A stretch of DNA of 24,451 bases, from positions 1 to 24,451 of IMG/VR virus record IMGVR_UViG_3300048837_001560. The stretch is one strand, 5' to 3'. Made by a program: the position numbers and the translations under genes. This document shows positions 3,992 through 18,962 of the stretch, one piece after another. Under the pieces are notes generated by a model. It was given only the letters and a program-made list of their open reading frames with translations, was not told where the DNA came from and ran no database searches. Every line of letters starts with the position of its first letter. Positions within the stretch are counted from its first letter, which is position 1. The DNA is from a virus.

Positions 3992-3995
3992 TGCG

Positions 3996-4460
3996 CTAAT
4001 CCGGCTGCCAGAACTCCATCATCTCAAACTCAATCGCCGCCATCAGTGTGTTCTGCGTCCCGGCCGCGTACGGCGCGGCCCAGGTCGACCGCACCTCCAC
4101 CAGAATCGCCGGCGCCGAGTAATACGTGTGGCTCAACGTCCCGCTCACCCGGCCCGTCAGCGTCCCGTACGCGCCTTTCAAATTCATGAGGTTGATGTGC
4201 TGGAGCTGCGCCGCCGGATACGCGGCCACAAACACCACCGTCCAGCTCACCGCCGGCGGCGTCAGCGGCAGCCGCCCCGTGCCGTTGGCCGAAACCTTGC
4301 CCCCGGCCGGTAGCCGCCGGATCCGCCCGCGCACCACCTCCGGACCGTCGGCCGATCCGCTCTCCACATACACGCCCGAAGCGAGCGCGTTGAACGTGTA
4401 CACGCCGTTATCGAACGACGTGATCCGCACATTGTGCGGCGCCTGGACAAACTCCGTCAC
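3996..4460 (-). CDS. Small tail protein between tape measure and tip protein (distal-tail-like position)
   Basis: A 154-aa frame starting with GTG at 4460, which overlaps the tape-measure stop by four bases (GTGA). It begins MTEFVQAPHNVRITSFDNG and is rich in beta-prone residues, with no membrane segment or signal peptide. The C-terminal part (SAPAILVEVRSTWAAPYAAG, MAAIEFEMMEFWQPD) also looks like a beta-sandwich protein. In siphovirus tail modules the gene directly after the tape measure normally encodes the distal tail protein that joins tube to tip. This one is shorter than most such proteins, so the role is inferred from position and not from recognised motifs. Confidence 0.7.
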   Translation of the reverse strand: MTEFVQAPHNVRITSFDNGVYTFNALASGVYVESGSADGPEVVRGRIRRLPAGGKVSANGTGRLPLTPPAVSWTVVFVAAYPAAQLQHINLMNLKGAYGTLTGRVSGTLSHTYYSAPAILVEVRSTWAAPYAAGTQNTLMAAIEFEMMEFWQPD

Positions 4461-6427
4461 GGCAACACCCCCGCGGCCTGCAACTCCTGAATCAGCTCCA
4501 TCCCCACCGCGCTCACATTCAGAACAATGTCCTTCTGCGCCGGGATGTTGTCGATCAGCGTCTTGACCTCGCCCGACTGCGTGATGACGTCGTCAATGTT
4601 CAACGTCACCACCGCCTCATATGCCTCTTCCGGCGACGTGAAGCCTTCGACAATGCCGATCGCCTCATTCACAGCGGTCTCCACCGCCTCATCATCGATC
4701 TCAAACTCCAGCGTGATCGGGTCCAGACCGTACTGCTGCCCCAGCGCCGCGCCGTAGCTCGAGTAGCCATACTCGCTCAAATCCGGCAGCCCCAGCTCGG
4801 CCACGTTTTGCCTGCTCTCCAGCGCCGACAGCGCCGCCTCCACCGCCGCCGGGTAATCCTGCCAGGCCAGCACACCCCGCTCCACCGCCCCGGCCAGCGA
4901 CTCGGCGATCTGAATCTGCTGCGCCATCGCCTCGCCCACCGCCGCGGCCTCTTCGGAGATGATGCCCCGGTCCACGCCGAACTCGCTCAAAAATCCGATG
5001 CCCGCGCCGTGGCCCCGGGCGGCCTCGTACATGATCTCATCCAGCGTCTTGACGTTCTCGGCCGCCGCGTCCACCTGCTGCGCGTACGTCGTGAAATTGG
5101 CCGCGCCCGTCCGCGTCAGCTCGTCCGTATACTGGCCCCACGCCTGCATCGCGTTGGCCGCTATCTCCGCCTGCGCCGACAGCCCGGCCAGGTCCAGGTC
5201 CGACATCGCCTCCATCGCCAGCGCCGCCGTGTACGCCGTCTCCCCGTAAGCGGCCATCGACCGGTCGACCTGCTCAATCTCCGCCGCGGCCTCCTCCACC
5301 GCGCCGCGCTGTAGCTGCCACTGGTAGTTGATCTGCTCCACCGACCGGTCATAAAGCGCCAGGTCCGACATGGCCTCCTCGATCAGCTCGTTCAACTGCC
5401 GCTGATGCTCCCGTTGCACCTCAACTGCCGACCAGCCCCGCTGCGCGCCCTTCTCCCGCGCGCTCTCATACGCGGCCCAAATCTGTTCATTGGTCGCGCC
5501 CAGCGCCAGCGCCGTTTCTTCCAGGTCGCTCGTCTGGCCGCTCATCGCCACGCCCGCGGCCACCGAGAACGCCGTCCCCAGCGCCTCGCCCGCGGCCTGG
5601 CCAACTTGCGCGGCCGTATCTTCCAGGTCCGGCGACCCCGCCCGCAGCGAATCCACCGACGAGGCGATGCCCTCCGCCGCGCCCGTCGCCAGACCGACCT
5701 TGAACGCGTCGCCGACGTTCTGGACCGTCGCCTCCATGATTTGCAGCTTCCCGGCCGTCGTCTCCGCCGCGCTGCCGACAATCGCCAGCTTCTCCTCGCC
5801 GGCCTCAATCAGCGCCCACTTGAACGCCTCGTCCGCGCGGTAGCCCGCTTCCATCAGCCGCTCGACCTTCGGCTCCACCGCATCGACCGACAGCCCCAGC
5901 GCATCCAGCCGCATCAGCGACTGGTTGTTGATCGTCAGCCCCAGAACATCCATGTTCCAGTTGAGCTGCCCGGCCACCGTCGCCAGCGCCACCGCCTCCT
6001 CATGCGACTTCGCCAGACCCAGGCTCATCAACTGCGACGCCGAGGCGAGCATTTCCTGCTTCGACACCAGGCCGCCCAGCGCCGCGCTGAGGTCCTCCTC
6101 CAGCGCCTGCGCCGTCGTGCCGATATTCGCCGACAACGCCGCGAAATCGTCGTTGGCCTTCACCAGCGCCGCGCCCTCGCCCAGCGCCGCGTACGCCGCC
6201 GTCGCCGCGCCCGCGACCTGCTGCAGGACGTTGGCCACGGCCGAGATCGTCACCGCCCCGGCCGCCACGCCCACCAGTTTCGACAGCCCTGAGCTGGTCT
6301 CCTCCACCCCCGACGCCGCGGCCCGGCCTTCCTCGCCCACCGCGCGCAGATCCTCCCGCGCCCGGCTCAGAACCGCATTGCCCTCATAGTCGACCTCGAG
6401 GATGTAAGAAACCTTCCGATCAGCCAT
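4457..6427 (-). CDS. Tail tape measure protein
   Basis: 656 aa from ATG 6427, preceded by GGGAG about 7 nt upstream. An upstream TTG at 6439 lies inside the heptamer repeat and is unlikely to be the start. The protein is Ala-rich and long-helical throughout (EEAAAEIEQVDRSMAAYGE), with a hydrophobic stretch near residues 50-85 (GVAAGAVTISAVANVLQQVA) typical of tape measures, which scaffold tube assembly, set tail length and are ejected with the DNA. It lies directly after the G/GT chaperone pair, the canonical place. By the usual rule of about 0.15 nm of tail per residue, 656 residues would give a rather short siphovirus tail of about 100 nm (inference). No lysozyme-like or peptidase domain is apparent. 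Confidence 0.88.
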   Translation of the reverse strand: MADRKVSYILEVDYEGNAVLSRAREDLRAVGEEGRAAASGVEETSSGLSKLVGVAAGAVTISAVANVLQQVAGAATAAYAALGEGAALVKANDDFAALSANIGTTAQALEEDLSAALGGLVSKQEMLASASQLMSLGLAKSHEEAVALATVAGQLNWNMDVLGLTINNQSLMRLDALGLSVDAVEPKVERLMEAGYRADEAFKWALIEAGEEKLAIVGSAAETTAGKLQIMEATVQNVGDAFKVGLATGAAEGIASSVDSLRAGSPDLEDTAAQVGQAAGEALGTAFSVAAGVAMSGQTSDLEETALALGATNEQIWAAYESAREKGAQRGWSAVEVQREHQRQLNELIEEAMSDLALYDRSVEQINYQWQLQRGAVEEAAAEIEQVDRSMAAYGETAYTAALAMEAMSDLDLAGLSAQAEIAANAMQAWGQYTDELTRTGAANFTTYAQQVDAAAENVKTLDEIMYEAARGHGAGIGFLSEFGVDRGIISEEAAAVGEAMAQQIQIAESLAGAVERGVLAWQDYPAAVEAALSALESRQNVAELGLPDLSEYGYSSYGAALGQQYGLDPITLEFEIDDEAVETAVNEAIGIVEGFTSPEEAYEAVVTLNIDDVITQSGEVKTLIDNIPAQKDIVLNVSAVGMELIQELQAAGVLP

Positions 6428-6434
6428 CCCTACT

Positions 6435-6483
6435 CCCAATTCCCAATTCTTAATTCCTAATTCCTAATTGTTAATTCTTAATT
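6435..6483 (-). repeat. Heptamer tandem repeat cluster 1, seven units (AATTAGG type)
   Basis: Read on the minus strand, seven exact 7-bp units follow one another: AATTAAG, AATTAAC, AATTAGG, AATTAGG, AATTAAG, AATTGGG, AATTGGG, then AGTAGGG and the tape-measure ATG. The first unit supplies the TAA stop of the chaperone GT frame, and the last units run into the Shine-Dalgarno region of the tape-measure gene. The block is sharply AT-rich in a GC-rich genome and fills the whole intergenic gap. Confidence 0.92.
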
Positions 6484-7181
6484 GACTCCGTATCGCCACC
6501 GCAACCACACCTCGTACCGTCGCTCCACCGGTGGCTCATCTCGCTCCATCTCCAACGACAACACCCGGCCGGCGATCTGCCACGCCTCCGGGTTCGCATT
6601 GGCCCAGGCCACCTTGTTCTCCGCCCGAACGTACCCCCGCATCGACTCGTACACATTGCGCGCGATGCGGTACCCGTCCAGCGTCCGCTGCGGCCAGGCC
6701 ATCCAGCCCCCGCCGAACGGATCACCCAGCGCCTGCACGTTCAGGTAGAACTGCAACTCACCCGGCTTCTCCTCGCTCTGGCCGCGCACGTAGTCCGCGA
6801 CGGCCAGGATCAGCTTTTTTTTTCGTCCAGCGTACCGTACACCAGCGCGTCGAAGTGCCGTAGCACCTGGTCGCCGTAGTACCACGCTTCCGCCGGCGTC
6901 AGCTCATCCACATTGACACCGTCGAACAAGTAGTCCACGCGCGTCACCGCCCGGCCTGCCTCCAGCACGTCGCGGCGGTGGACCTCCGTCTCCGGCGTCA
7001 GAATCCACCCCGCCACGCAGGCCGCCTTGATCGCCGACAACCGCGCCGCCATCTTCCCGACCTGCGGCAGTTGCGCGTACACCGCGTTAAACTCCGCCAC
7101 ATTCCCGGCCGTCGGGTTGCTCACCAGCTCCACCACCCGCCCGAACCGGTCCACCTGGCCCTCAGTCACCGTCTTCGCCAT
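6478..7181 (-). CDS. Tail assembly chaperone G-T fusion made by -1 ribosomal frameshifting
   Basis: Two overlapping frames form the classical siphovirus G/GT pair: frame 0 starts at 7181 and stops at 6810, while the -1 frame is open through the run of A and continues to TAA at 6478. A slip on A_AAA_AAA would give a 234-aa product, 122 residues of frame 0 followed by 112 of the -1 frame (KLILAVADYVRGQ onward). In coordinates this is complement of 6816..7181 joined to 6478..6816, with base 6816 read twice. The T part has a Trp/Arg-rich C-terminus (RRYEVWLRWRYGVN). In lambda and relatives the GT form binds the tape measure and recruits tail-tube subunits. Position between tube protein and tape measure agrees fully. 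The T frame has no start of its own near the shift that needs to be used. Confidence 0.85.
6810..7181 (-). CDS. Tail assembly chaperone G (unshifted product)
   Basis: 123 aa from ATG 7181, with AGGTAGGA upstream as ribosome-binding site. It ends in frame 0 at TGA 6812-6810, three codons after the slippery run begins (DEKKS then stop). It is the abundant short form of the G/GT pair; both forms coat the tape measure during tail assembly and are absent from the virion. The body (AAFNAVYAQL-like helices, TPAEAWYYGDQVLRHFDALV) is helical, as is usual for these chaperones. It follows the tube protein after an 81-nt gap holding a heptamer cluster and a 16-bp palindrome. Confidence 0.82.
   Translation of the reverse strand: MAKTVTEGQVDRFGRVVELVSNPTAGNVAEFNAVYAQLPQVGKMAARLSAIKAACVAGWILTPETEVHRRDVLEAGRAVTRVDYLFDGVNVDELTPAEAWYYGDQVLRHFDALVYGTLDEKKS
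6815..6823 (-). promoter_or_regulatory. -1 programmed frameshift site, run of nine A
   Basis: On the minus strand the G frame reads GAC GAA AAA AAA AGC TGA. The nine A residues contain the slippery heptamer A_AAA_AAA in the correct phase, and the stop follows one codon later. The -1 frame continues as AAG CTG ATC CTG. This is the standard arrangement for siphovirus tail chaperones. Confidence 0.85.
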
Positions 7182-7192
7182 ATCGTCCTACC

Positions 7193-7208
7193 TGTTGGCG
7201 CGCCAACA
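7193..7208. promoter_or_regulatory. 16-bp perfect palindrome just upstream of the chaperone G ribosome-binding site
   Basis: TGTTGGCGCGCCAACA is perfectly self-complementary. It ends 11 nt before the G start codon at 7181 and directly abuts the putative ribosome-binding site (GGTAGGA). It contains an AscI-type GGCGCGCC core. It could be a protein-binding site, or as RNA a structure limiting translation of the chaperone, which must be made in controlled amounts. Function is not established. Confidence 0.5.
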
Positions 7209-7225
7209 CACTGATCCACGCGCTC

Positions 7226-7260
7226 TGTAATTCCTAATTCTTAATTCTTAATTGTTAATT
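7226..7260 (-). repeat. Heptamer tandem repeat cluster 2, five units
   Basis: Minus-strand units AATTAAC, AATTAAG, AATTAAG, AATTAGG, AATTACA follow two bases after the TAG stop of the tail-tube gene and precede the chaperone G leader. Same family as the cluster at 6435-6483. Confidence 0.9.
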
Positions 7261-7262
7261 TG

Positions 7263-7652
7263 CTAAGCCGAGTCCGCCACCGTCATCGACCCGCTCACCG
7301 TGAAGACCACACTGCACACCGCCAGGTCCCCGCTCGGCGAGCTGACCTCCGGTCCCTCCGAGTACGCCTCGGCCGCGTTGTAGTCCAGCACCCCGGCGAT
7401 GTTGCCCGCGTCGATGGCCGCCTTCGCCGCCTGGTCGATCGCATTCATCACCGCCGCTGCGCCGGTGCTCGGCACCACGAAGTTCACCGTGAACTTCGGC
7501 GCGCTCTTGGCCGCCACGCTCAGGTCATACGCCAGGTCCGCCACCGTCTTGGTGATGATCCGGCCCTTGTTCATCACCCGCACCGACTCCACGTGCGGGA
7601 TCGTCATGGTGCCGAACTTGAATGACTGTCCATGTCCTGTCTGTCCGCTCAT
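7263..7652 (-). CDS. Major tail (tube) protein
   Basis: 129 aa from ATG 7652, one base after the stop of the tail-completion gene (TGAGATG). N-terminus MSGQTGHGQSFKFGTMTIPH, then VESVRVMNKGRIITKTVADL and a C-terminal beta strand region (LAVCSVVFTVSGSMTVADSA). Short proteins with this pattern, placed between the DUF3168-type terminator and the G/GT chaperones, are the tube subunits that polymerise as hexameric rings around the tape measure. The length is at the low end for the family. The call rests on position and general beta-rich character more than on a specific motif. Confidence 0.72.
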   Translation of the reverse strand: MSGQTGHGQSFKFGTMTIPHVESVRVMNKGRIITKTVADLAYDLSVAAKSAPKFTVNFVVPSTGAAAVMNAIDQAAKAAIDAGNIAGVLDYNAAEAYSEGPEVSSPSGDLAVCSVVFTVSGSMTVADSA

Positions 7653-7653
7653 C

Positions 7654-8019
7654 TCAACTCACCTCTCTGTAATAGATCTCCACGTCCATCACCTGGACGA
7701 AGGTCGCTGTCTCCACATCTCGCTGCACATGCTGGCCGATCAGCGCCATCCGGTTGATGCTCCCGCCCTGGTAGCCGTTCAGCACCGCATCCATCTGTCG
7801 ATAGACCGACCTCACGCCATCGAACGTCCGATCCACGGCCGACAGTTGGTACACCGCCCGGCGCAGGCTCAACGGCCCGTCCGCCGGCACATACGGATGA
7901 CCTGCGAACTCCACGTACGTACCATACGGCAACTGTGCCCCGGCCGGCGCTTCCACCGGATACAACCGGCCGCCGACCACGCCGCTCAGCGCCGCGTACA
8001 GCTCGCTCTCCACCGTCAT
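7654..8019 (-). CDS. Tail completion / terminator protein, DUF3168 (gp17-like)
   Basis: 121 aa from ATG 8019, overlapping the preceding stop by four bases (ATGA). The pattern is that of the DUF3168 family: an N-terminal helix (VESELYAALSGVVGGRLYP), a strand (LPYGTYVEFAG), the phrase LRRAVYQLSAVDRTFDGVRSVYRQMDAVLNGY, and a C-terminal strand VQVMDVEIYYREVS. Members cap the tail at its head-proximal end. Gene order (gp10-like before, tube protein after) agrees. Confidence 0.82.
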   Translation of the reverse strand: MTVESELYAALSGVVGGRLYPVEAPAGAQLPYGTYVEFAGHPYVPADGPLSLRRAVYQLSAVDRTFDGVRSVYRQMDAVLNGYQGGSINRMALIGQHVQRDVETATFVQVMDVEIYYREVS

Positions 8020-8393
8020 AGCCCCGACGCCTCCGCATGACGGTTCATCGCCGCCACCAGCCGCGCCCGCAGCTCCGGACTCCGCTCCTCCACCGCGCGG
8101 CCGATCATTCGCAACGCCGGCCGCCGGCTCGTGCCGAACTCCAGAAACGGCACCACAAACCAGTCACTGCCGATGTCCACGCTCGCCAACTGGCCGTCAA
8201 TCTCCACCTCGCTCATCTCAATCGACTCAGCCGATTTGCCGGTGTCCCGCGGCGTGTCCCGCTTCGCCTGGTCGACGATCTCCCGGCCGGTCTCCCGCAG
8301 CGCCTCCGGCGCCACCTTGGCCACCATGCCCCGGTCGAACTCGCCCAGATCGGCCACCAGCTCCTCCAGTCCCTGCCACGGATCACGTTTCAT
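8016..8393 (-). CDS. HK97 gp10-like tail completion protein
   Basis: 125 aa from ATG 8393, overlapping the end of the head-tail adaptor by 11 nt. The central segment DTPRDTGKSAESIEMSE followed by VPFLEFGTSRRPALRM is the signature of the HK97 gp10 family (a T.PvdTG.l..si strand, then a v..vEfGT...pa.pf loop). These proteins join the tail terminator to the connector at the end of tail assembly. C-terminal helix ERSPELRARLVAAMNRH. No anomalies. Confidence 0.88.
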   Translation of the reverse strand: MKRDPWQGLEELVADLGEFDRGMVAKVAPEALRETGREIVDQAKRDTPRDTGKSAESIEMSEVEIDGQLASVDIGSDWFVVPFLEFGTSRRPALRMIGRAVEERSPELRARLVAAMNRHAEASGL

Positions 8394-8718
8394 ACAGCCG
8401 CCTCACGTGCAGCATCGTCTCCCGCTGCCGCCCGTTCACGTCCTCCACATGCACGATCTCATAGTCATGGCCGTCATACCGCACGCGCCACGTCGGCGTC
8501 ACATCGTCGCGGAACCGCAGTGTAAACCGTGCCGTCAGCTCCGCCTGGGCGCCGACGCTGGCCACGAACTCCCGGCCACTCACCGGCGCGAACGCCGCGT
8601 AGTCGTGGCCGATGATCCGGTACGCCGTCACCACCTCGCCGCTGGGCGACTGCACGCTCATCGGCTCCTTGATCGCCACGCGGTGCCGGTACTTCCCGGC
8701 TCCGCTGCTACTTGCCAT
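8383..8718 (-). CDS. Head-tail adaptor (SPP1 gp16 / head-tail joining family)
   Basis: 111 aa from ATG 8718, overlapping the preceding gene by 11 nt. It has the typical layout of the small head-tail joining family: KYRHRVAIKEPMSVQSPSGEV near the start, an aFAPVSGREFV-like strand, RFTLRFRDDVTPTWRVRYDG, then YEIVHVEDVNGRQRETMLHV and a charged end. Such proteins form a ring that stoppers the portal channel after packaging. Position between the gp6-like connector and the gp10-like protein is canonical. Confidence 0.88.
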   Translation of the reverse strand: MASSSGAGKYRHRVAIKEPMSVQSPSGEVVTAYRIIGHDYAAFAPVSGREFVASVGAQAELTARFTLRFRDDVTPTWRVRYDGHDYEIVHVEDVNGRQRETMLHVRRLYET

Positions 8719-9331
8719 AGTGGAACCAGTCCCGGTCCAGACTCAGCAGCGCCTCGATCCCGCTCGGCATCGCCAGCGACTGCGGCGGCGTCGGCTGAAA
8801 AACCGTCGCCTCCCGGTGCTCCAGGTAATCGCCGACCACCAGCAGGATGGCCAGCCGGAACATCTCCGGCACGTCCGCGGCATCGTCGCCGTACCCGGCC
8901 GTATACGTCACTTCAATCCCGGCTCGCGCCGGTTGAGGCGCGGGCGGCCACGACGACTTCGCCACCACCGCGCCCGGTTCCAGCGGCCACACCAGCGTCT
9001 CGTACGCCGCCTGGTCCCAGGTCACCGGTCCGCCGTCGGTCCGGTAGACCACGCTCTCGACGGTCTGCACCGGACCCCAGGGCACGTACAGCAATTCCTC
9101 TGCCGGCCACCGGTCCACCACATACCGCCGCGTCTGCGTGATCAGCGACCGCCGCAGGTACAACTCCACGCTCCGCCGCGCCGCTCGAATCAGCAGCTCC
9201 ACGTGCTGCAACTCGGCCGCCGTCTCCAGCCGCAATCGGCTGTGCGTGGCCACCTCAGTTGCGGTCACCGGCTCCCTCGCCGGTGGCACAAGGACCGCCG
9301 GCATCATCGCCGGCGCGGCGTCTGGCATCAT
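8708..9331 (-). CDS. Head-tail connector, HK97 gp6 / phiE125 gp8-like
   Basis: 207 aa from ATG 9331 (a second ATG follows at once at 9328), 3 nt after the stop of the preceding small gene. Diagnostic stretches are the N-terminal helices EPVTATEVATHSRL and LLIRAARRSVELYLRRSLI, the central strand YVVDRWPAEELLYVPWGPVQ, ARAGIEVTYTAGYGDDAADV and the late helix PEMFRLAILLVVGDYLEHRE. This is the connector that assembles as a dodecamer-like ring below the portal. The C-terminus ends with LSLDRDWFHYGK. Confidence 0.88.
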   Translation of the reverse strand: MMPDAAPAMMPAVLVPPAREPVTATEVATHSRLRLETAAELQHVELLIRAARRSVELYLRRSLITQTRRYVVDRWPAEELLYVPWGPVQTVESVVYRTDGGPVTWDQAAYETLVWPLEPGAVVAKSSWPPAPQPARAGIEVTYTAGYGDDAADVPEMFRLAILLVVGDYLEHREATVFQPTPPQSLAMPSGIEALLSLDRDWFHYGK

Positions 9332-9334
9332 GTC

Positions 9335-9574
9335 CTACTTGTCCTTACCCTCGTCGCCGGTCTCCCCGGCCTTGTCTTCGTCCGTCAGCGTGGCCTTTTC
9401 CTTCCCGGCCTTCGTCGCCTTGACCGCCATCTTCTTCTCCGGCGCGTCCGCGAGCTCTGCCTTCTTCGCCCCGATCAGAAACCGGCCGTCCTCATCCGAC
9501 ACCTCGGCCACATCCCCGGGCCCAACCGGCTCACCATTCAAAAACGTGTTGCGCAAGAAAACCACTTTCATCAT
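9335..9574 (-). CDS. Small charged head-associated protein, Lys/Glu/Ala-rich tail
   Basis: 79 aa from ATG 9574 with GGAG 5 nt upstream; a second ATG follows directly. The first half (KVVFLRNTFLNGEPVGPGD, VAEVSDEDGRFLIGAKKAEL) matches a small beta-domain seen in many phage head modules between capsid and connector genes. The second half is a low-complexity, highly charged tail (KAGKEKATLTDEDKAGETGD). The function is not known to me; a minor capsid-associated or connector-assembly role is suggested only by its location. Confidence 0.75.
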   Translation of the reverse strand: MMKVVFLRNTFLNGEPVGPGDVAEVSDEDGRFLIGAKKAELADAPEKKMAVKATKAGKEKATLTDEDKAGETGDEGKDK

Positions 9575-9615
9575 TCACTCTCCGTCAGGAACCAGGAACC
9601 GGAGAGCAGCACCTC

Positions 9616-9643
9616 CCCGATTCCTAATTCCCAATTCCTAATT
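9616..9643 (-). repeat. Heptamer tandem repeat cluster 3, four units
   Basis: Minus-strand units AATTAGG, AATTGGG, AATTAGG, AATCGGG begin a few bases after the TAA stop of the capsid gene. Slightly downstream on the same strand a second 7-bp motif, GGTTCCT, occurs twice in tandem (about 9587-9603) before the next ribosome-binding site. Confidence 0.88.
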
Positions 9644-9647
9644 CGAC

Positions 9648-10994
9648 TTAGGCCGTCAACGCATCCAACATCGCCGCAAACGACTGCGGATGCCGGATCG
9701 CGATATCCGCATCCTGATGCACCGTCACCCGCACGGCGCCGCTCAGATCAGCCGCGTACGGATTGACAATCACATCCAGGCCCGTCCAGAACGCCACGAC
9801 CAGGTCAGCCCAGTTCCCGAAGAAGATCGCGCTGCAGATGCCGTTGGCCGTGCCCTTCGTCAGATTGTCGGCCACCTGGTTGGTCACGTACGCCGGATAC
9901 CCGTTCAACGGCGTCCCCGGCGCGCCCCGGTCCCAGATCATGCTCGCGTCCGTGCCCGCGGCGACAACCGCCCGCTTCAGCAGGCCGCGCACCTTGGCAT
10001 TGGTCATGTACGCCAGCCGGCCGATGTCGGCGTTGTCCACCGCCACCTCGGTCTCCAGCGCCACGATGTCCGCCCAGTCCGGCGTGGCCCCGTTGGCCCC
10101 GCCGACGACGCTGCCGATACCCACCGTCGCGGCGACGCCGCGCGGCTGGTTGTTCGTCGCCGTGCCGTGCAGCGCCACCCGGTCGATCTCGATCGCCAGT
10201 GTCGTCATCAGGTCATTGCGGACGAACATCTCGATGTCGATGCTCGACTGGATCAGCAGCTTGCGGCTGTAGCTGGTCGACGCGCCGACCGTCTTCGGCG
10301 ACAGCGGCACCTGGCCGACCTGCGGCGTGCTCAACGTCACATCGCCGTCCTCAGCTACCCAGTACGCCGTGGCCCCGCCCGTCTGACGCGGAATCGCCAG
10401 ATTCCCGGTCAGGTCGTTCAGGATCGTCGCTCCGGCCGCCTGGACCATGAGCTTGTTCCGCAGCAGCTCGATCATTGGCCGGTCAATGTCCGTCGCCACC
10501 AGGTACCCGCCGTCAGCCGGCGTCCCGATGTTCAACTCGCTCGCCCGGGCCTCGCGCTGCCCGGCGTTGACGATGTCCGCCGGCACCAGGAACCCCGTCG
10601 CCGGCTTTCCACGCGCTTCCACGGCCGCCCGGTGCGCCTCCAGCTCCAGGCCCGCGTTGGACCAGTCGCCGTCAGCCGCGGCCCGGATGGCCCGCGTCAG
10701 GCTGTACGACCGGCGCTCCTGGTCGGTCATGCCGATCTCACCGTCGCCGGGGTCAGCCTCAGCCACAATCCGACCCTGCGACCGGGCCGCCGGCGTCGCC
10801 CGCTCCATCTCCGTCTGGCCCGTCAGCCTCTCAATGCGCTCGTTCAACTGCCGCACCTCGGCGTACTTGGCGTCATACGCCGTCGTCTCGTCCTGGTTCA
10901 GCGCCCGGTTCTCACCCTCGGCCGTGTCCAGGATCTGCCGCGCCTCGGTGATCAACTGCTGCCGGCGCTCCCTTAACTCATGTACCTTTCCCAT
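9648..10994 (-). CDS. Major capsid protein, HK97 fold with N-terminal delta domain
   Basis: 448 aa from ATG 10994, preceded by GGGAG at about 8 nt; a GTG three codons earlier (11003) is an alternative. Residues 1-75 or so are a charged coiled coil (VHELRERRQQLITEARQIL, AEVRQLNERIERLTG), the scaffolding delta domain cut off by the protease. The mature part contains ELNIGTPADGGYLVATDI, a nearly universal pre-strand in this family, then TGNLAIPRQTGGATAYWVAE, VALHGTATNNQPRGV and the C-terminal DADIAIRHPQSFAAMLDA. Lysine-bearing loops exist, but whether HK97-like crosslinking occurs cannot be judged. Lies directly after the protease gene as expected. Confidence 0.94.
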   Translation of the reverse strand: MGKVHELRERRQQLITEARQILDTAEGENRALNQDETTAYDAKYAEVRQLNERIERLTGQTEMERATPAARSQGRIVAEADPGDGEIGMTDQERRSYSLTRAIRAAADGDWSNAGLELEAHRAAVEARGKPATGFLVPADIVNAGQREARASELNIGTPADGGYLVATDIDRPMIELLRNKLMVQAAGATILNDLTGNLAIPRQTGGATAYWVAEDGDVTLSTPQVGQVPLSPKTVGASTSYSRKLLIQSSIDIEMFVRNDLMTTLAIEIDRVALHGTATNNQPRGVAATVGIGSVVGGANGATPDWADIVALETEVAVDNADIGRLAYMTNAKVRGLLKRAVVAAGTDASMIWDRGAPGTPLNGYPAYVTNQVADNLTKGTANGICSAIFFGNWADLVVAFWTGLDVIVNPYAADLSGAVRVTVHQDADIAIRHPQSFAAMLDALTA

Positions 10995-11020
10995 CTCTCT
11001 CACACTCCCGGAATCCCCTT

Positions 11021-11055
11021 CCAGATTCCTAATTCCTAATTCGTAATTTCTAATT
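11021..11055 (-). repeat. Heptamer tandem repeat cluster 4, five units, overlapping the protease stop
   Basis: Minus-strand units AATTAGA, AATTACG, AATTAGG, AATTAGG, AATCTGG. The first two and a half units are translated as the last residues of the protease (LEITN), and the TAG of the third unit is its stop codon. The remainder leads to the capsid ribosome-binding site. Confidence 0.9.
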
Positions 11056-11713
11056 CCAACCTGCGCCGCAACAGCAACAGCCGCGCCTGCGAACTGTCTC
11101 CCAGCCCGGCCGCGCCCGCGGCCGGATCCGGCGGCAATCGATCCGCCAGCGCATCCATCAGTTGGCGGAGCTCCGCCGGCGATGCGCCGTCAAAATCCAC
11201 ATAGTCAACCTGCGCGATCAAGTCGCGCACCGACCGCGCCTCCACGGCCGTCTGCGGGTACGCCGGAAATGTCACCGGCGACACCTCGTACAGCTCGCAC
11301 TGCTCCAGCGTCCGCACCCGGCTCTCGCCGTCCTGCGTCCATGACTGCTTCACCACGTCGAACAAGAACGAGCACTGATACACATCGCCGCGCCGGATGC
11401 TGATCACCGCGTCCCGGCCCGCCTGCGTCTCCGGGGGCCACACCTCAAACCGCAACCCCCGCGCCTCCTCCGTCAGTTTCAGCTTCCCGTTGCTCGTCCG
11501 GCCGAGAACGTGGTCGCTGTTGTGGTTCCACACCGCCGCCACATCCCGGCTCGCAATCGACTCCGCAAACGCGCCCGGCCGGATCCGCTCCCGGAACCCG
11601 CCCAGGTCCTCGCTCAGCACATCATACGGCGCTGCCAACCCCCGGATCGGCGCGCCGCCCTCGTCCTCACCCTCCGCCTCAATCAACTCAAACCCAAACG
11701 CTCTCCGCTCCAT
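11036..11713 (-). CDS. Prohead protease, HK97 gp4 / U35 family serine protease
   Basis: 225 aa from ATG 11713 with GGAGAG about 8 nt upstream. The frame is open further upstream to 11803 but there it only translates the heptamer repeat (ITNYELR), so that part is not taken as coding. The fold markers are GAPIRGLAAPYDVLSED, FRERIRPGAFAES, the catalytic His region AAVWNHNSDHVLGRT, and the catalytic Ser region DVYQCSFLFDVV, followed by ELYEVSPVTFPAYPQTAV, a very typical end of the protease domain. It removes the delta domain of the capsid protein and digests itself. The last residues are encoded by a heptamer repeat. Confidence 0.92.
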   Translation of the reverse strand: MERRAFGFELIEAEGEDEGGAPIRGLAAPYDVLSEDLGGFRERIRPGAFAESIASRDVAAVWNHNSDHVLGRTSNGKLKLTEEARGLRFEVWPPETQAGRDAVISIRRGDVYQCSFLFDVVKQSWTQDGESRVRTLEQCELYEVSPVTFPAYPQTAVEARSVRDLIAQVDYVDFDGASPAELRQLMDALADRLPPDPAAGAAGLGDSSQARLLLLRRRLELEITN

Positions 11714-11734
11714 ACCACACTCTCCGCTCCCCTT

Positions 11735-11762
11735 CCCCATTCGTAATTCGTAATTCGTAATT
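11735..11762 (-). repeat. Heptamer tandem repeat cluster 5, four units (AATTACG type)
   Basis: Minus-strand units AATTACG three times, then AATGGGG, in the short gap between the portal-gpF stop and the protease start. If translated upstream of the protease it would read ITNYELR, the peptide this heptamer family gives in one frame. Confidence 0.92.
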
Positions 11763-11781
11763 CGAGCCGACTCCTGTCGGC

Positions 11782-13827
11782 CTAGGCCGCGACGATCTGA
11801 CAATCACACCCCCGGTGGCTCGGCGGATGCCCCACCGACCGCGACGGCCGCAACGGCGCCACGCCGTCCCCGCCGCCAAATGCCTCGCCCGCGCCGATGA
11901 AGTTGCTCGAAATCGCGATCACCCGGCCGTCCAGCCGCGTGCAATACGGACACGTCTCGCCGAACGCCACCCAGCGCAGCCGCTGCACCCCGGCGTGCTC
12001 AAACGCTGCCACGGCCATCGCCGACCCGGCCCGCACGCTCTCATCCAGCGCGATCTGCCCGGCCCGGTCCGTCCGCCACAACTCCAGTTCCGCGGTCAGC
12101 GCCGCCAGCGGATCGTCCGTCGCCACCAGCGCCGCCTCAATCCGTGCCAGCGCCCGGGCGCTATGCCGCTCCGCGTACAGCGTCAGGTACGCCCGCACGA
12201 ACCGCGCCAGGTCCGGCGTGTCCGCCACGCCGACCTCCGCCGCGGCCGCCTCGGCCACCTGCTGCGCGTAACTCAGCGACACGCCGGAGAGCTGCTCCAT
12301 GATCACCTGCCGGTTCTCGGCGTAGAACTTGCGCAGCCACTCCAGAAACTCTGTCGTGTTGTTCCGCTGCTGGAAGTAGCGCTTCGCCTGGTTGCCGATG
12401 TCGTTCGCTTCCCGATTCACCAGCCGTTGCGCGGCCTCCTGGTACAGCGGCAAATACACCTGCTGCAACCGTCGCCGCGTCATCGCCACCTGCCGCGCCC
12501 GCTGGTCACTCATCCCCGCGGCCGCGGCCGTCTCGTGGCGTCCGGGCAACCCCCTGTGGTTGCCCTCTTCTCCCTCCCCATCCGTCACTCGTAATTCGTC
12601 ACTCGTCATGCCATACCCGGCCGACCCCGCGGGCATCATATTCAGCGGCACCAGATACTGGTCGCCCGCCTCATAGTCATTCAGGTTCTCCCGCTGCCGG
12701 GCCTCGTTCGGCGACATGATGCCCCAGTTGATCATCGTCGCATACGACTGCGTCCGCGCCTGCAGGTCGCCGCGCTGCAGCGCATCCGTCATGAACTCGT
12801 AGTAGTACCGGCCCCGGTCCTCACCCAGCAACGTCATGTTCGATCGCTGCTCAATCCGCCGCAACCACGGCAACAGCGAATACGTCACAAACGACTGCCC
12901 CTGGTGCTCGATGTTGGAGAACGTCGCGCGCTCCAAATCCGCCAGCATATGCGGCGGCACGCGAAAAATCCGCGCGATCTCCTCAATCTGGAACCGCCGC
13001 AGCTGTAGGAACTGGACATCCTCCGGCGGCAAGGCGATGCTCTTGTACGTCATCCCCTCCTCGAGGACCGCGATCCGGTGCGCGTTGTCCAGGCCACCCT
13101 GCCGCGCCTCCCAGCCGGCCCGGATGTTCTGCCGCATCTCCGCCGTCACCTTGCCCGGGTACTCCAGCACCGCCGGCGGAATGGCCCCATTGACGAACAA
13201 CTTTGACCCGAACGCCTCCGCTGCCAGCCCCAGCCCGATCTGCTGCCGCGCCAGTTGGATCGGCGACAGACCCGTGTATCCGTTGCCGCCCAGGCCGCGG
13301 ATGTGCCACACCCGCTGCGCCGGCAGTCCGAACGACCGCTCGCCGTGCTGATACACATACACCAGCCGGCCCGATCCGCTATCTCGCCGCAGCGTCATGC
13401 CCGGCGCCATCAGCGGCCACAGCGCCCGCGGCCGGTCGTCCGTGTCGAACTCAATCTCCGCGTACGCATTGCCGTACAGCAGCACCTGCACCATCGCCAG
13501 CTCAAAGAACTCAAACGCTGAGATCTCCGGGTTAGGCGTGTCGTGCAGCAGGCTGTACGCCGCCGAGCCGGTCGCCCGCTGCCGGCCGCCGCCCTGCTCA
13601 CGTTCGTAGAGGATCATCGGCAGCATCGCCACCGACTCCGACAGGATGCGGATGCAGGCGTACACCGCGCTAAACCGCAGCGACGTCTCCGGCGTCACCT
13701 CCACCCCGGCATCCGACGACCACTGGAACCAGTGGCGCAGCCCATCCGGCAGCGACATCAGCGCCCGCTGCTCGGCTTGCTGCCCCCCCACCTGTTGGCG
13801 CGCAAACAAATCTCTCAGTATCGGCAT
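11782..13827 (-). CDS. Portal protein fused to Mu gpF-like minor head protein
   Basis: 681 aa from ATG 13827 (GGGG 3 nt upstream). Residues 1 to about 400 are an HK97-type portal: TSLRFSAVYACIRILSESVA, LPMILYERE, VLLYGNAYAEIEFD, VWHIRGLGGNGYTGLSP, FSNIEHQGQSFVTYSLLPWL and NDYEAGDQYLVPLNMMP are standard landmarks. Residues about 439-681 are a Mu gpF-like head morphogenesis domain: helical body, then CPYC at 626-629 and a late HPPSHRGCDC (H667, C674, C676), the usual Cys/His end of the family. In most phages these are two separate genes. Residues about 407-435 of the seam (MTSDELRVTDGEGEE, GNHRGLPGRHE) are encoded by a heptamer repeat and a palindromic element. The portal is the DNA channel and packaging docking site; gpF-like proteins are minor head components. 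Confidence 0.9.
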   Translation of the reverse strand: MPILRDLFARQQVGGQQAEQRALMSLPDGLRHWFQWSSDAGVEVTPETSLRFSAVYACIRILSESVAMLPMILYEREQGGGRQRATGSAAYSLLHDTPNPEISAFEFFELAMVQVLLYGNAYAEIEFDTDDRPRALWPLMAPGMTLRRDSGSGRLVYVYQHGERSFGLPAQRVWHIRGLGGNGYTGLSPIQLARQQIGLGLAAEAFGSKLFVNGAIPPAVLEYPGKVTAEMRQNIRAGWEARQGGLDNAHRIAVLEEGMTYKSIALPPEDVQFLQLRRFQIEEIARIFRVPPHMLADLERATFSNIEHQGQSFVTYSLLPWLRRIEQRSNMTLLGEDRGRYYYEFMTDALQRGDLQARTQSYATMINWGIMSPNEARQRENLNDYEAGDQYLVPLNMMPAGSAGYGMTSDELRVTDGEGEEGNHRGLPGRHETAAAAGMSDQRARQVAMTRRRLQQVYLPLYQEAAQRLVNREANDIGNQAKRYFQQRNNTTEFLEWLRKFYAENRQVIMEQLSGVSLSYAQQVAEAAAAEVGVADTPDLARFVRAYLTLYAERHSARALARIEAALVATDDPLAALTAELELWRTDRAGQIALDESVRAGSAMAVAAFEHAGVQRLRWVAFGETCPYCTRLDGRVIAISSNFIGAGEAFGGGDGVAPLRPSRSVGHPPSHRGCDCQIVAA
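12544..12565. repeat. Palindromic element inside the portal-gpF seam
   Basis: Two perfect 8-bp arms, gggcaacc and ggttgccc, enclose a 6-bp loop. On the coding strand this reads GGGCAACC ACAGGG GGTTGCCC and is translated as GNHRGLP. Palindromes of this general sequence are, from memory, dispersed intergenic repeats in several GC-rich bacterial genomes. Here it is coding and sits between the portal and gpF domains. Confidence 0.65.
12579..12606 (-). repeat. Heptamer tandem repeat cluster 6, four units, inside a coding sequence
   Basis: Minus-strand units ACGAGTG, ACGAATT, ACGAGTG, ACGGATG directly follow an in-frame ATG at 12609. Unlike the other clusters this one is fully inside a reading frame, in the linker between the portal and gpF domains, where it encodes TSDELRVTDG. 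Confidence 0.8.
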
Positions 13828-13838
13828 ATCCCCAACGC

Positions 13839-13880
13839 AAAAAAGGGGCGCGCACGTCCTCTTCAGAACGTGCGCGCCCC
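13839..13880 (-). terminator. Strong intrinsic terminator, 11 nt before the portal start codon
   Basis: On the minus strand a perfect 13-bp GC-rich stem (GGGGCGCGCACGT with ACGTGCGCGCCCC), loop of 10 nt, is followed at once by six T. Stem at 13845-13857 and 13868-13880, T run at 13839-13844. This fits a rho-independent terminator for leftward transcription very well. There is no matching T run on the plus strand, so it is unidirectional. The portal ATG follows after only 11 nt, leaving no room for a promoter in between. Confidence 0.88.
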
Positions 13881-13897
13881 AGGTAATCCTCGAACGC

Positions 13898-13917
13898 GGC
13901 GATTGCTGTCAATCGCC
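13898..13917. promoter_or_regulatory. Second stem-loop upstream of the terminator
   Basis: Perfect 8-bp arms ggcgattg and caatcgcc around a ctgt tetraloop, 17 bp upstream (on the minus strand) of the terminator stem. With the terminator it gives a two-hairpin leader between the candidate promoter at 13979-14007 and the portal gene. Confidence 0.5.
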
Positions 13918-13978
13918 CCAAATCTATTTTGCTATCCTGCGTAGTCTCTCAACGGACAGAGCGTAATCTGCTGTTCAC

Positions 13979-14007
13979 ACTCTACCACACCCCTCCCCCA
14001 AAATCAA
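13979..14007 (-). promoter_or_regulatory. Candidate sigma-70-like promoter upstream of the portal gene
   Basis: On the minus strand TTGATT (14007-14002) and TAGAGT (13984-13979) are separated by exactly 17 bp; each matches four of six consensus positions. It lies in the only sizeable non-coding gap within the head region, after the HEPN gene stop at 14094. A transcript from here would pass both hairpins before reaching the portal. Candidate only. Confidence 0.3.
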
Positions 14008-14093
14008 TCCCCCTGTACCACACTCTTGCCCAATCATGTCAAATACAGCAACTGACATTCTACGCCGAAGATCACAGATTAATCCGAAACGAC

Positions 14094-15143
14094 TCAATTT
14101 AGATGAGCCAGAAAATCCAGTAACAGAAATGCTCTGACCATATACGGCTTCTTGCCATAAGTTACATTCTCGCCGTGAAGTACCTTGTTACGATTGAACA
14201 TGAGCGGGCTCTTGGGTAGCTCTCCAACCCTGGTTGCCCCGAACAAGACACCAAGCATGACTGCGCTAAACAGACCGTCAAAATCGCTGTCAAACACCTC
14301 AGACATCTCTTGCCCGAACTTTGTTAAATTAGTCTGATTATTGCGAGACCGTGTGATGCCCTTTGAAATTAAGTAGTCGCCTATTATGCCGTCGATCTGA
14401 GCAATCAAGGTCGGAAGGACTACGTTCGCTACATTGACTTTACGCGATTGTGACAACTGCAGTACCGCGACACAATCTCGAAAGATCTTGTGCCTTCTCT
14501 CGAATAAGCCATTCGCCTGCCACCCCTCCATCATTAGGTGCAACACACTCCAGTTGTCTCTTTCAAGATAGTCAACCATTAGCTTGTTCACTGCAGCATC
14601 TTGTCGCCCCGATCTCTCGCCAATTTCCGCTAGGTCATGGATGAGTCTGATAGGCATGGAAGGCGTAACAAACCACTTATACCTCAGCAACACAGGATAT
14701 GCGCCGCCAAGCGCCCTGTCAGTTTCGCGTCTGAGACGGTCCGTGAAGTCACTTAAGCTTTGGAGTGCCTCCTGATTCGCTTCAGCCCAATCCGTCCAGA
14801 AATTCAGCTGCGGCACGAAAATCTCTGCTATCTGCGCTCGCATCTGAGCGCTCACTATCGCCAGATCTTCGAGTATCGAGTCAAAGACTTGCTGATTCAC
14901 CGTGGCTAGAAGGGCACGTACTTCGCTACCAAACACATCCGAAAAGTCTGCCATCGACGAAGCCGCATCATGGATCGCGCGCGTCTGGGAAAACACCTTC
15001 TCCCAGTCTGTTGCCGACATAACAGGCCATGGCGAAGATCCAACACTGCGCCGAGGCGGCACGGAACCCGAATCATCCGATGTCTGTTTCGGCTCCTCTT
15101 GATCTCTTTCCAATTGCTCGCCTGCCGGGTTATCGTCCATCAT
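14094..15143 (-). CDS. Cargo (moron) protein with C-terminal HEPN-like RxxxxH motif
   Basis: 349 aa from ATG 15143 (GGTGG just upstream; a TTG start at 15191 would give 365 aa). The gene is visibly AT-richer than all its neighbours, with AT-ending codons common, and stands apart with spacers on both sides, so it looks acquired. The protein is mostly helical (SSMADFSDVFGSEVRALLAT, SDFTDRLRRETDRALGGAY). Its C-terminus, NRNKVLHGENVTYGKKPYMV then RAFLLLDFL, contains RNKVLH, i.e. RxxxxH at R318 and H323, the catalytic pattern of HEPN ribonucleases, in the same NR..vLHG context as a family of uncharacterised bacterial proteins. HEPN domains often act in abortive infection and toxin systems, so superinfection defence is the likely but unproven role. 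No antitoxin partner is seen next to it. Confidence 0.75.
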   Translation of the reverse strand: MMDDNPAGEQLERDQEEPKQTSDDSGSVPPRRSVGSSPWPVMSATDWEKVFSQTRAIHDAASSMADFSDVFGSEVRALLATVNQQVFDSILEDLAIVSAQMRAQIAEIFVPQLNFWTDWAEANQEALQSLSDFTDRLRRETDRALGGAYPVLLRYKWFVTPSMPIRLIHDLAEIGERSGRQDAAVNKLMVDYLERDNWSVLHLMMEGWQANGLFERRHKIFRDCVAVLQLSQSRKVNVANVVLPTLIAQIDGIIGDYLISKGITRSRNNQTNLTKFGQEMSEVFDSDFDGLFSAVMLGVLFGATRVGELPKSPLMFNRNKVLHGENVTYGKKPYMVRAFLLLDFLAHLN

Positions 15144-15174
15144 TTCCACCAATTCAGCATCGCAGAATTCCTTC

Positions 15175-15191
15175 TTGTTTCGATCAAACAA
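15175..15191. promoter_or_regulatory. Inverted repeat at the upstream boundary of the HEPN gene
   Basis: TTGTTT and AAACAA arms around a 5-bp centre (GATCG), located 32 bp upstream of the chosen ATG and overlapping the alternative TTG start. It could be an operator keeping the cargo gene quiet, or chance. Short and AT-rich, so evidence is weak. Confidence 0.25.
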
Positions 15192-15254
15192 TTGACTTCA
15201 CGCCACAGGAGAACTCTACCCTCCCGACCGCATCATTGCCACATGTCGGCTCTG

Positions 15255-15296
15255 CATTCATTATTCGTCACTTGTTGCTCGTCACTCGTCACTCCA
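15255..15296 (-). repeat. Heptamer tandem repeat cluster 7, six degenerate units
   Basis: Minus-strand units TGGAGTG, ACGAGTG, ACGAGCA, ACAAGTG, ACGAATA, ATGAATG lie just after the TGA stop of the 98-aa gene (15300). Same ACGAGTG/ACGAATT flavour as the cluster in the portal-gpF seam, more degenerate than clusters 1-5. It marks the right boundary of the AT-rich cargo block. Confidence 0.7.
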
Positions 15297-15299
15297 CCC

Positions 15300-15596
15300 T
15301 CACCGACGCCTCTCCGGTATCGTCTGCTCCATCCCCAGTAGCCGCTCAATCTGTCGCAGCCTGGCGATCGTCCGGTCCCGCTCCCCCAGCAAAAACCGTC
15401 GCAGCGCCACCGCCAGCGACGGTTCAACCGCCGGCTCCATCCCCAGCGCCACCAGCTCCTCCTCCACCCCCCGCTCACGCTTCGGTTCCTGCTCCATATT
15501 CCCATCCATACACCAATCCTCACGATATGCCACGGCACAGCGGCATTGATGCGGCAGCGGCTCATATTTCGCAACTTCCCACCATGCAGTTTCCAT
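15300..15596 (-). CDS. Small hypothetical protein with C-terminal helical region
   Basis: Up to 98 aa from ATG 15596, which lies 7 nt after the preceding stop with AGGTGG close upstream. An internal ATG at 15509 (GAGGA upstream) would give 69 aa and is the main alternative; the first 29 residues contain HQCRC and a third Cys but no recognised domain. The C-terminal part (EPSLAVALRRFLLGERDRTI, ARLRQIERLLGM) is a charged helix, as in many tiny phage proteins. Function unknown. Confidence 0.6.
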   Translation of the reverse strand: METAWWEVAKYEPLPHQCRCAVAYREDWCMDGNMEQEPKRERGVEEELVALGMEPAVEPSLAVALRRFLLGERDRTIARLRQIERLLGMEQTIPERRR

Positions 15597-17400: not shown

Positions 17401-18962
17401 ATCAACTCAATCCCTCGCGTCTCATACACGCTCTCTTCGTCGAGGTCATGCCGCATTGCCCGGCCCAGCGCCATCAGCAACGCGACCACGCCGTCGATCT
17501 TCCGCCTTGCCTTGGTCTTGTTCGGTTTCAGGTTCCCGGCCGGGTCCTGGTCCACGACCACATTGTCAGCGTTCCACCGCAGCACCGGGTGGCCGTTGTG
17601 CTGCAACCCGCCTGCGTTCAGCAGCCGGTAAAGCTCTTTCGCCGGGGCGCTCATGCTGGCGTAGCCCTGGCCGAACTCCACCATCACCAGCCCCGCCCCG
17701 GCGAGCTGGTTCGACACCTGCACCGACCCCCACCGGTCGAATGCGATGTCCACGATGTTGAACCGCTCTGCCAGTTCCTCAATGTCGCGAGTGATCACCG
17801 CGTGGTCGATGACATTGCCCGGCGTCGCCCGCACGAACCCGTCCCGAATCCACGCCTCGTAATTCGCCTGCTGCTGCCGTTGCCGCTCCACCACGTTCTC
17901 CGCCGGCAACCAGAAGAACGGCAGCACGCGATACGGCGCCGCGCCCGTCTCCTCATCCGGAAACAGCAGCACCAGCGACGCCAGGTCGCTCGTGTTCGCC
18001 AGGTCCAGACCGCCGTAGCAGGTCCGGCCCTCCAGCGACTTCTCATCGAACTCCGCCCGGCACGCGTCCCACACCTCCAGCGGAAACCACTTCGACCGCT
18101 GCGCCGTCCGGATGTTCAGCAGCAGCCTCTTGAACGTGTTGATGTACGCCGGCGAGTTCGCCGCCCGGCGCGCCTCCTCCGCCATGTACTCCGGTTTCAG
18201 CGACACGCCATAGTTCGGATTCGCCGCCGCCCACACCGCCGGGTCCTGCCAGTCCGCGTCCGCCGCGGCTTCGTAGATCAGCGGATAGAACGTCTCATCC
18301 TCAATCACCCCGTCCCGAACCTGCACCGCGTACTCGTAGATCTCCGCCTCGATCGACTCCGGCTCATACCCGGCCGTCGTTAAGGCAATGACCAGCGGCT
18401 GCTGCCGAGAGCCCTGCGCCGTGGTCAGCGTATCCCACAGCTCGCGCGTCGGCTGCGTATGCAGCTCATCAAACACCACCAGGTGTGGATTCAACCCGTG
18501 CTTGGTCTTGACATCGGAGCTGAGGACCTTGTAGCTGCTCATGGTCTTCTCGACCGTAATCGCCCGCTTGTAGACCCGCGCCTGTTTCATGAGACGCGCC
18601 GACGACCGGACCATGTCCTTCGTCTGCTCAAACACGATCCCGGCCTGGTCCCGGTCGGCCGCGGCCGAAAAGACGTCCGCTCCCCGCTCTCCGTCCGCGA
18701 AGAGCGCATACGCCGCCAGCGCCGAGCCCCACGTCGACTTGCCGTTCTTTCGCGGCACATACAGCAACACACGACGATACCGCCGCGTCCCGTCACTCCG
18801 CCGCTTCCAGCCGAAAATCTCCCGCGTTGCCTGCCGCTGCCACTCCTCCAGCACAAACGGCTGACCCGCGAACTCGCCCTTCGTATGCTGCAGGTACGTT
18901 TCGATGAACCAGACGACCCGCTCGGCCGCCTCCTCATCGAAATAGTAATCACTCGCCGCCAT
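17397..18962 (-). CDS. terL: Terminase large subunit (ATPase-nuclease packaging motor)
   Basis: 521 aa from ATG 18962; a GTG at 18986 is open but the ATG, just inside the 3' end of the 59-aa gene, is preferred. N-terminal adenine-binding region FVLEEWQRQ; Walker A VPRKNGKST at residues 69-77; Walker B LVVFDELH at 161-168 with D165/E166; coupling motif ALTTAG shortly after. The C-terminal nuclease half has GGLDLANTSDLASL, VDIAFDRWG and a late KIDGVVALLMALG, giving the acidic residues of the RNase H-like site. This is the large family of HK97-like phage terminases. It cuts concatemers and pumps DNA through the portal, working with the small subunit at 19650-20141. Confidence 0.95.
   Translation of the reverse strand: MAASDYYFDEEAAERVVWFIETYLQHTKGEFAGQPFVLEEWQRQATREIFGWKRRSDGTRRYRRVLLYVPRKNGKSTWGSALAAYALFADGERGADVFSAAADRDQAGIVFEQTKDMVRSSARLMKQARVYKRAITVEKTMSSYKVLSSDVKTKHGLNPHLVVFDELHTQPTRELWDTLTTAQGSRQQPLVIALTTAGYEPESIEAEIYEYAVQVRDGVIEDETFYPLIYEAAADADWQDPAVWAAANPNYGVSLKPEYMAEEARRAANSPAYINTFKRLLLNIRTAQRSKWFPLEVWDACRAEFDEKSLEGRTCYGGLDLANTSDLASLVLLFPDEETGAAPYRVLPFFWLPAENVVERQRQQQANYEAWIRDGFVRATPGNVIDHAVITRDIEELAERFNIVDIAFDRWGSVQVSNQLAGAGLVMVEFGQGYASMSAPAKELYRLLNAGGLQHNGHPVLRWNADNVVVDQDPAGNLKPNKTKARRKIDGVVALLMALGRAMRHDLDEESVYETRGIELI

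Follow-up and report, generated by a model that had tools for sequence, protein, structure and literature searches.

Heptanucleotide repeat arrays adjoin stop codons in a phage head/tail module

The virus record IMGVR_UViG_3300048837_001560 from IMG/VR was analysed over its whole length of 24,451 bases, hereafter the window, which has a GC content of 65% and is 94.6% coding. All phage genes that we identified lie on the minus strand and together form an HK97-type head/tail module, with small and large terminase, a portal protein fused to a MuF-like domain, a protease, the capsid protein, adaptors and tail proteins. The window also carries seven arrays of tandem 7-bp units belonging to one heptamer family (AATTAGG, AATTACG, AATTGGG, AATTAAG and AGTGACG), all in the sense of the coding (minus) strand, where they read AATTRNG or AGTGACG (Table 1). 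These arrays had been pointed out by an earlier reading of the DNA (the original prediction), and all seven were recovered at the same coordinates by a strict period-7 filter together with Tandem Repeats Finder (TRF). The filter, which demands that 17 of 21 bases be equal at a shift of 7, was passed by five arrays; first-order Markov shuffles yielded 0.02 per window, and at every other shift from 3 to 13 the window gave zero matches. A shift of 14, the double period, also gives matches. The remaining arrays, at 12579–12606 and 15255–15296, are weaker and were detected by TRF.

Six of the seven arrays lie at gene borders, beginning 0–19 nucleotides (nt) from a stop codon. The seventh, at 12579–12606, is coding, as first described, and could be placed more precisely in the flexible linker that follows the portal domain (residues 53–381 of the fused portal/MuF-like open reading frame, ORF), so that even the exception occupies a place tolerant of filler; the two parts are fused in one ORF in all 16 relatives where both were found. 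Non-coding DNA holds 191 of the 245 array bases, a share equalled by 0 of 100,000 random placements, which bears on the border enrichment that the original prediction had proposed to measure against a control. The further suggestion of an array at almost every junction did not hold, as the overlapping or touching genes of the block 7654–9574 are free of them. Nor do the arrays generally span the gap from a stop codon to the next ribosome-binding site: they are anchored to the stop, and only the array before the putative tape-measure gene reaches a start directly. The final units of that array provide GGGAG at −10 to −6, a Shine–Dalgarno-like motif for the putative start at 6427. Two arrays do supply stop codons themselves, as had been noticed, AAT-TAA in the array at 6435–6483 for the upstream gene ending at 6478 and AAT-TAG in the array at 11021–11055 for the protease gene ending at 11036. 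A role as spacers for coupled translation is not general, since the distance to the next start varies while the distance to the preceding stop is tight.

At the capsid junction, the array GGGAATTAGGAATCGGGGAG follows the capsid stop, ahead of the next start, and pairs with an inverted stretch containing (GTTCCTG)2, a partner at 9586–9600 that had been missed earlier. The resulting hairpin of 22 bp has a predicted folding energy of −34.9 kcal/mol (z −4.8), and equally good pairing with this array was found for 0.3% of segments drawn at random from the window. Within 80 nt of the capsid stop, 28 of 32 relatives have a helix of 9 bp or longer, built from unrelated sequences, and in one relative (L143) the hairpin is made from that relative's own array of a different heptamer (AATGACG/AGTGACG). 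Retention of the hairpin while its sequence was swapped, twice by heptamers, is to us the strongest hint of a function. The likely use would be termination, or protection of the 3′ end of the capsid mRNA. The main novel element is that an array forms the predicted 5′ arm of a hairpin where most relatives have a hairpin of other sequence.

Table 1. Repeat arrays and the genes beside them in the window
Feature	Position	Strand	Details
Array, 7 units	6435..6483	-	AATTAAG AATTAAC AATTAGG AATTAGG AATTAAG AATTGGG AATTGGG, then AGTAGGG
Array, 5 units	7226..7260	-	Starts 2 nt past the stop of the 7263-7652 gene
Inverted partner (GTTCCTG)2	9586..9600	-	Inside the hairpin 3′ arm; TRF row
Array, 4 units	9616..9643	-	Right after the major capsid stop; 5′ arm of the 22-bp hairpin
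Major capsid protein gene	9648..10994	-	phrog_617, E 2.6e-92
Array, 5 units	11021..11055	-	Codes the last residues of the head maturation protease (ELEITN) and its TAG stop
Head maturation protease gene	11036..11713	-	phrog_80, E 1.2e-49
Array, 4 units	11735..11762	-	After the portal stop and a small inverted repeat, GCCGAC-AGGA-GTCGGC; before the protease ribosome-binding site
Portal protein fused to MuF-like domain	11782..13827	-	PF04860, E 2.5e-112; PF04233, E 7e-4, below its cut-off
Array AGTGACG/AATTACG, in frame	12579..12606	-	Linker between portal domain and MuF-like domain
Degenerate array, AGTGACG family	15255..15296	-	Starts 3 nt past the stop at 15300; borders the AT-rich accessory ORF

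Capsid relatives of the window reach at most 56% identity; its borders are therefore not alignable base by base, and the behaviour of the arrays was read from other viral contigs. Between L022 and L021, whose flanks are about 85% identical, an array was cleanly gained or lost at a border: L022 has a TAGTGAC array and L021 has none. Copy number, which the original prediction had proposed to compare between relatives, changes in whole units: the contig pairs L046/L112 and L012/L051 differ by multiples of 7, and L080 and L107 carry differing units within the same stop-to-start gap. Nearly all relatives are without an array at the same junction, and other heptamers are arrayed after stop codons in the window relatives L130, L140, L143 and L152. 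In the non-coding DNA of the capsid relatives, 7 is the most frequent period (13, versus at most 6 for any other). Several viral contigs hold more than one array per kilobase. The putative phage contig L040 (positions 1–12692) has 18 period-7 arrays in 12.7 kb, mostly of AATTATG and GAGTTAT.

The same units occur in bacterial genomes. The exact 25-mer AATTACGAATTACGAATTAGGAATT was found in at least 117 bacterial genome stretches from about ten phyla by record title; titles among the matches listed include Bacteroidetes, Nostoc/Planktothrix, Promineifilum/Ardenticatenia/Anaerolineae, Calditrichaeota, Ignavibacteria, Planctomycetota, Verrucomicrobiota, Hydrogenedentes, Cloacimonadota, Chloracidobacterium and Proteobacteria. 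A looser pattern, run on eight genomes, gave 3–113 matches per strand versus 0–1 for a reversed-pattern control. Of the arrays in bacterial loci, 166 are intergenic; another 33 are coding, and 32 of these read in a stop-free sense. Anchoring to stops recurs here: in 76 of 101 arrays that follow a same-strand upstream gene, no more than 15 nt separate the stop from the 5′ edge, and in 18 of the 101 the 3′ edge is close to the following gene. Convergent inverted pairs are numerous in Chitinophaga and Anaerolineae loci. In Chitinophaga solisilvae the units form the outer stems of dispersed palindromes of about 100–150 bp, some copies of which are 85–97% alike, and other Chitinophaga carry ordinary hairpin terminators instead at the single site that was compared; this palindrome or hairpin-stem arrangement is a minority architecture among bacterial arrays. 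Nine 20-kb regions of C. solisilvae (L514–L522), each picked for holding a palindrome, contain 16 of them, with near-perfect stems whose sequence varies among copies while self-complementarity stays. In three further loci (L297, L337 and L338) an array is seemingly translated in frame as I-T-N-Y-E-L-x-I-T, near apparent C-terminal sorting domains of Bacteroidota proteins. A conserved unit order, ACG-ACG-AGG-ACG, first seen in the pattern-selected loci, was set aside after proving weak in loci chosen blind to order (10 versus 6 and 15 versus 8). A BLAST search of the arrays against annotated phages and plasmids gave zero matches, which says little as the low-complexity filter was on.

The phage arrays belong to an established class, the intergenic heptanucleotide simple sequence repeats of prokaryotes, with which they share a 7-bp unit, few and heterogeneous units, a non-coding bias and a position nearer the 5′ ORF; another trait of the class described by Rehm and Mrazek, convergent inverted pairing, occurs at one of the seven window arrays. 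Among known systems the closest are the GGGAATC and GGGGA(C/T)T repeats of Xanthomonas and Nostoc, which likewise have a 7-bp unit, usually about four heterogeneous copies, and an intergenic position closer to the 5′ ORF; they form convergent inverted pairs now and then and change rapidly among relatives. In Xanthomonas the GGGAATC repeats mostly have four units, are 89–93% intergenic with convergent inverted pairs, and are separated by 28 nt from the 5′ ORF and by 160 nt from the one on the 3′ side (Rehm et al. 2015, PMC4692102). Written as GGGAATT, the phage unit AATTGGG matches the published (GGGANTN)n pattern (PMC4692102). Repeats of the GGGAATC type are chromosomal, with none on two plasmids (PMC4692102), whereas the present arrays are phage-borne and most of their units have G-tracts of at most 2, so that G-quadruplexes of the G3 type are not expected. 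G-quadruplex formation was discarded as a candidate: the arrays contain no motif of four G3 tracts, and the only G3 motif in the window, at 17818–17845, is outside them.

The TAACTGA direct repeats of Beggiatoaceae, cyanobacteria and Bacteroidetes, which lie mostly just upstream of starts (MacGregor 2015, PMC4679880), are also intergenic heptamer arrays of few units in distant phyla; their unit is different, and the phage arrays abut stops, with the one exception of 6435–6483. The link first drawn to the cyanobacterial short tandemly repeated repetitive sequences was right as to class and too narrow as to hosts, the class being far wider than cyanobacteria (PMC4692102). Tandem heptanucleotides are reported for Calothrix, as cited in PMC4692102; the likeness is one of class, by description and not by unit sequence, and the heptamer family of the window is not confined to cyanobacteria. 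As cited in PMC4679880 and PMC4692102, the heptanucleotide is the most abundant long simple-repeat unit in most prokaryotic genomes (Mrazek 2007), an excess for which polymerase slippage has been proposed as the cause; that survey, as these papers describe it, concerned chromosomes, unlike the phage studied here. The (GATAGRA)n satellites of Chloroflexus aurantiacus (PMC6749651) are similarly heptamer-derived but have another unit.

We favour, with moderate confidence, the reading that repeats of this known class, carried on a phage, are tolerated filler next to stop codons that is quickly gained and lost and is sometimes recruited as a hairpin, stop codon, ribosome-binding site or linker. Arrays would enter gene borders directly behind stop codons, on their 3′ side, where a repeat can have a length indivisible by three without harm. 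They would then lengthen, shorten and swap units in whole 7-bp steps through slippage or recombination and soon be lost again, slippage being the presumed local mechanism. Some copies may be recruited on the way, as the stop codon of two genes, the ribosome-binding site of the putative tape-measure gene, the portal–MuF linker or one arm of the 22-bp RNA hairpin after the capsid gene, at the site where relatives have theirs. We assume that recombination, or copying from site to site, brought the same unit to several borders, and we infer a cellular origin of the units. Of the ideas first offered for the arrays, that of a parasite of gaps fares best if taken as tolerated border filler, in line with the intergenic enrichment, clean gain and loss, whole-unit copy changes and absence from most relatives.

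Several points weigh against this reading. Local slippage alone cannot put one unit family at seven unlinked borders or into many phyla, and an additional spreading process is therefore needed. A strong inverted partner exists for only one of the seven window arrays; among bacterial arrays, 12% have a partner beating 95% of foreign ones versus 5% expected, a modest excess on which inverted partners were dropped as a general rule. The orientation bias in viral loci was non-significant (44 versus 30, p = 0.13), the survey's gene calls were an uncurated greedy longest-ORF set, and a single exact pattern had been used to choose the bacterial set. There is a slim chance that a common process acting in trans, perhaps a templated addition of DNA, places heptamers beside stops in phages and many phyla and feeds the rebuilding of 3′-end hairpins. 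Recombination between phage modules through short shared homology, one of the roles initially suggested, would fit the similar arrays at several borders within one genome and a patch of about 120 bp (L080, 6122–6242, compared with L107) that is 100% identical over an array and both gene ends in surroundings of 77–90%. However, synteny is broken next to arrays in 121 of 154 comparisons versus 183 of 241 for array-free gene borders (79% versus 76%, p = 0.62; the counts are mutually non-independent and show no trend), so the excess of breakpoints expected in arrays is absent, and most close phage pairs show no identity step at them. We therefore hold this explanation to be very unlikely.

An unlikely, though less improbable, alternative is that the arrays are post-transcriptional sites at which an RNA-binding protein governs how the flanking genes are translated or how stable their mRNA is, a role proposed for the Beggiatoaceae TAACTGA repeats (PMC4679880). 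The coding-strand sense of all seven arrays and the one that runs into the tape-measure start would suit such sites, but anchoring is to stops and not to starts, relatives lack arrays at the same junction, and unit identity differs at homologous junctions. Mobile repeats resembling repetitive extragenic palindromes (REP/REPIN), moved by a REP-associated tyrosine (RAYT, Y1) transposase, could account for the C. solisilvae arrays that form outer stems of dispersed palindromes in place of relatives' ordinary terminators. That genome lacks a Y1 transposase (PF01797 search), none of 29 Y1 loci in seven other genomes is flanked by this heptamer family (two have any period-7 array nearby), and a conserved palindromic core is lacking in the phage arrays; we accordingly put little store by such a mover. 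The window also encodes a protein with a ParB helix–turn–helix domain (23076–24449), for which the arrays might be dispersed, centromere-like partition iterons. Dispersed centromeres are known in the phage-plasmid N15. This use is nevertheless extremely doubtful: in the loci covered, which are partial, the ParB-like protein occurs in none of the capsid or portal relatives and in one array-bearing viral locus, at 30% identity, and the arrays are found in bacterial chromosomes of many phyla. Finally, the window is a single virus record with no near-identical relative for comparison, yet an assembly artefact is hardly credible, given that the arrays differ from one another, have unique flanks, encode in-frame residues and stops, and belong to a repeat class present in isolate genomes.

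The excess of heptanucleotides in bacterial chromosomes has long been noticed and poses the questions why the unit has seven bases and by what route one unit gets to many gene borders; phages that carry arrays offer a compact and rapidly evolving system for timing and testing how units are gained, lost and changed. At the capsid junction, arrays may act as building material for an RNA hairpin kept by relatives, which would explain why some of them persist.

No host was assigned to the phage, because the large terminase is 44–48% identical to genomes of the Promineifilum phylum yet also 46% identical to Streptococcus phages, and no capsid protein match exceeds 33% identity across 298 genomes belonging to a single class, the one that includes the Ardenticatenia genome G002. 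Three of the Promineifilum-phylum loci with this terminase similarity (L506, L507 and L508, from G678, G406 and G523) have no heptamer arrays in the 20 kb around each, the sole row in the L508 search being a run of N. The array at 15255–15296 flanks one side of an AT-rich island (13800–15200, 48–52% GC versus 65% for the genome) that carries a 365-aa ORF at 14094–15191; this ORF has no Pfam match and is probably a recently acquired accessory gene. The putative tape-measure gene, a 660-aa ORF (4457–6439, start used 6427) without a match in family searches, is so named on size and position only. Just upstream of it, where the ORFs 6478–6885 and 6810–7181 overlap, the coding strand has a run of nine A at 6815–6823 that looks like the programmed −1 frameshift site of tail assembly chaperones (G/GT). 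The 12-mer CCTGTTGGCGCG is present twice, at 7190–7201 and 13790–13801, with a start codon nearby both times.

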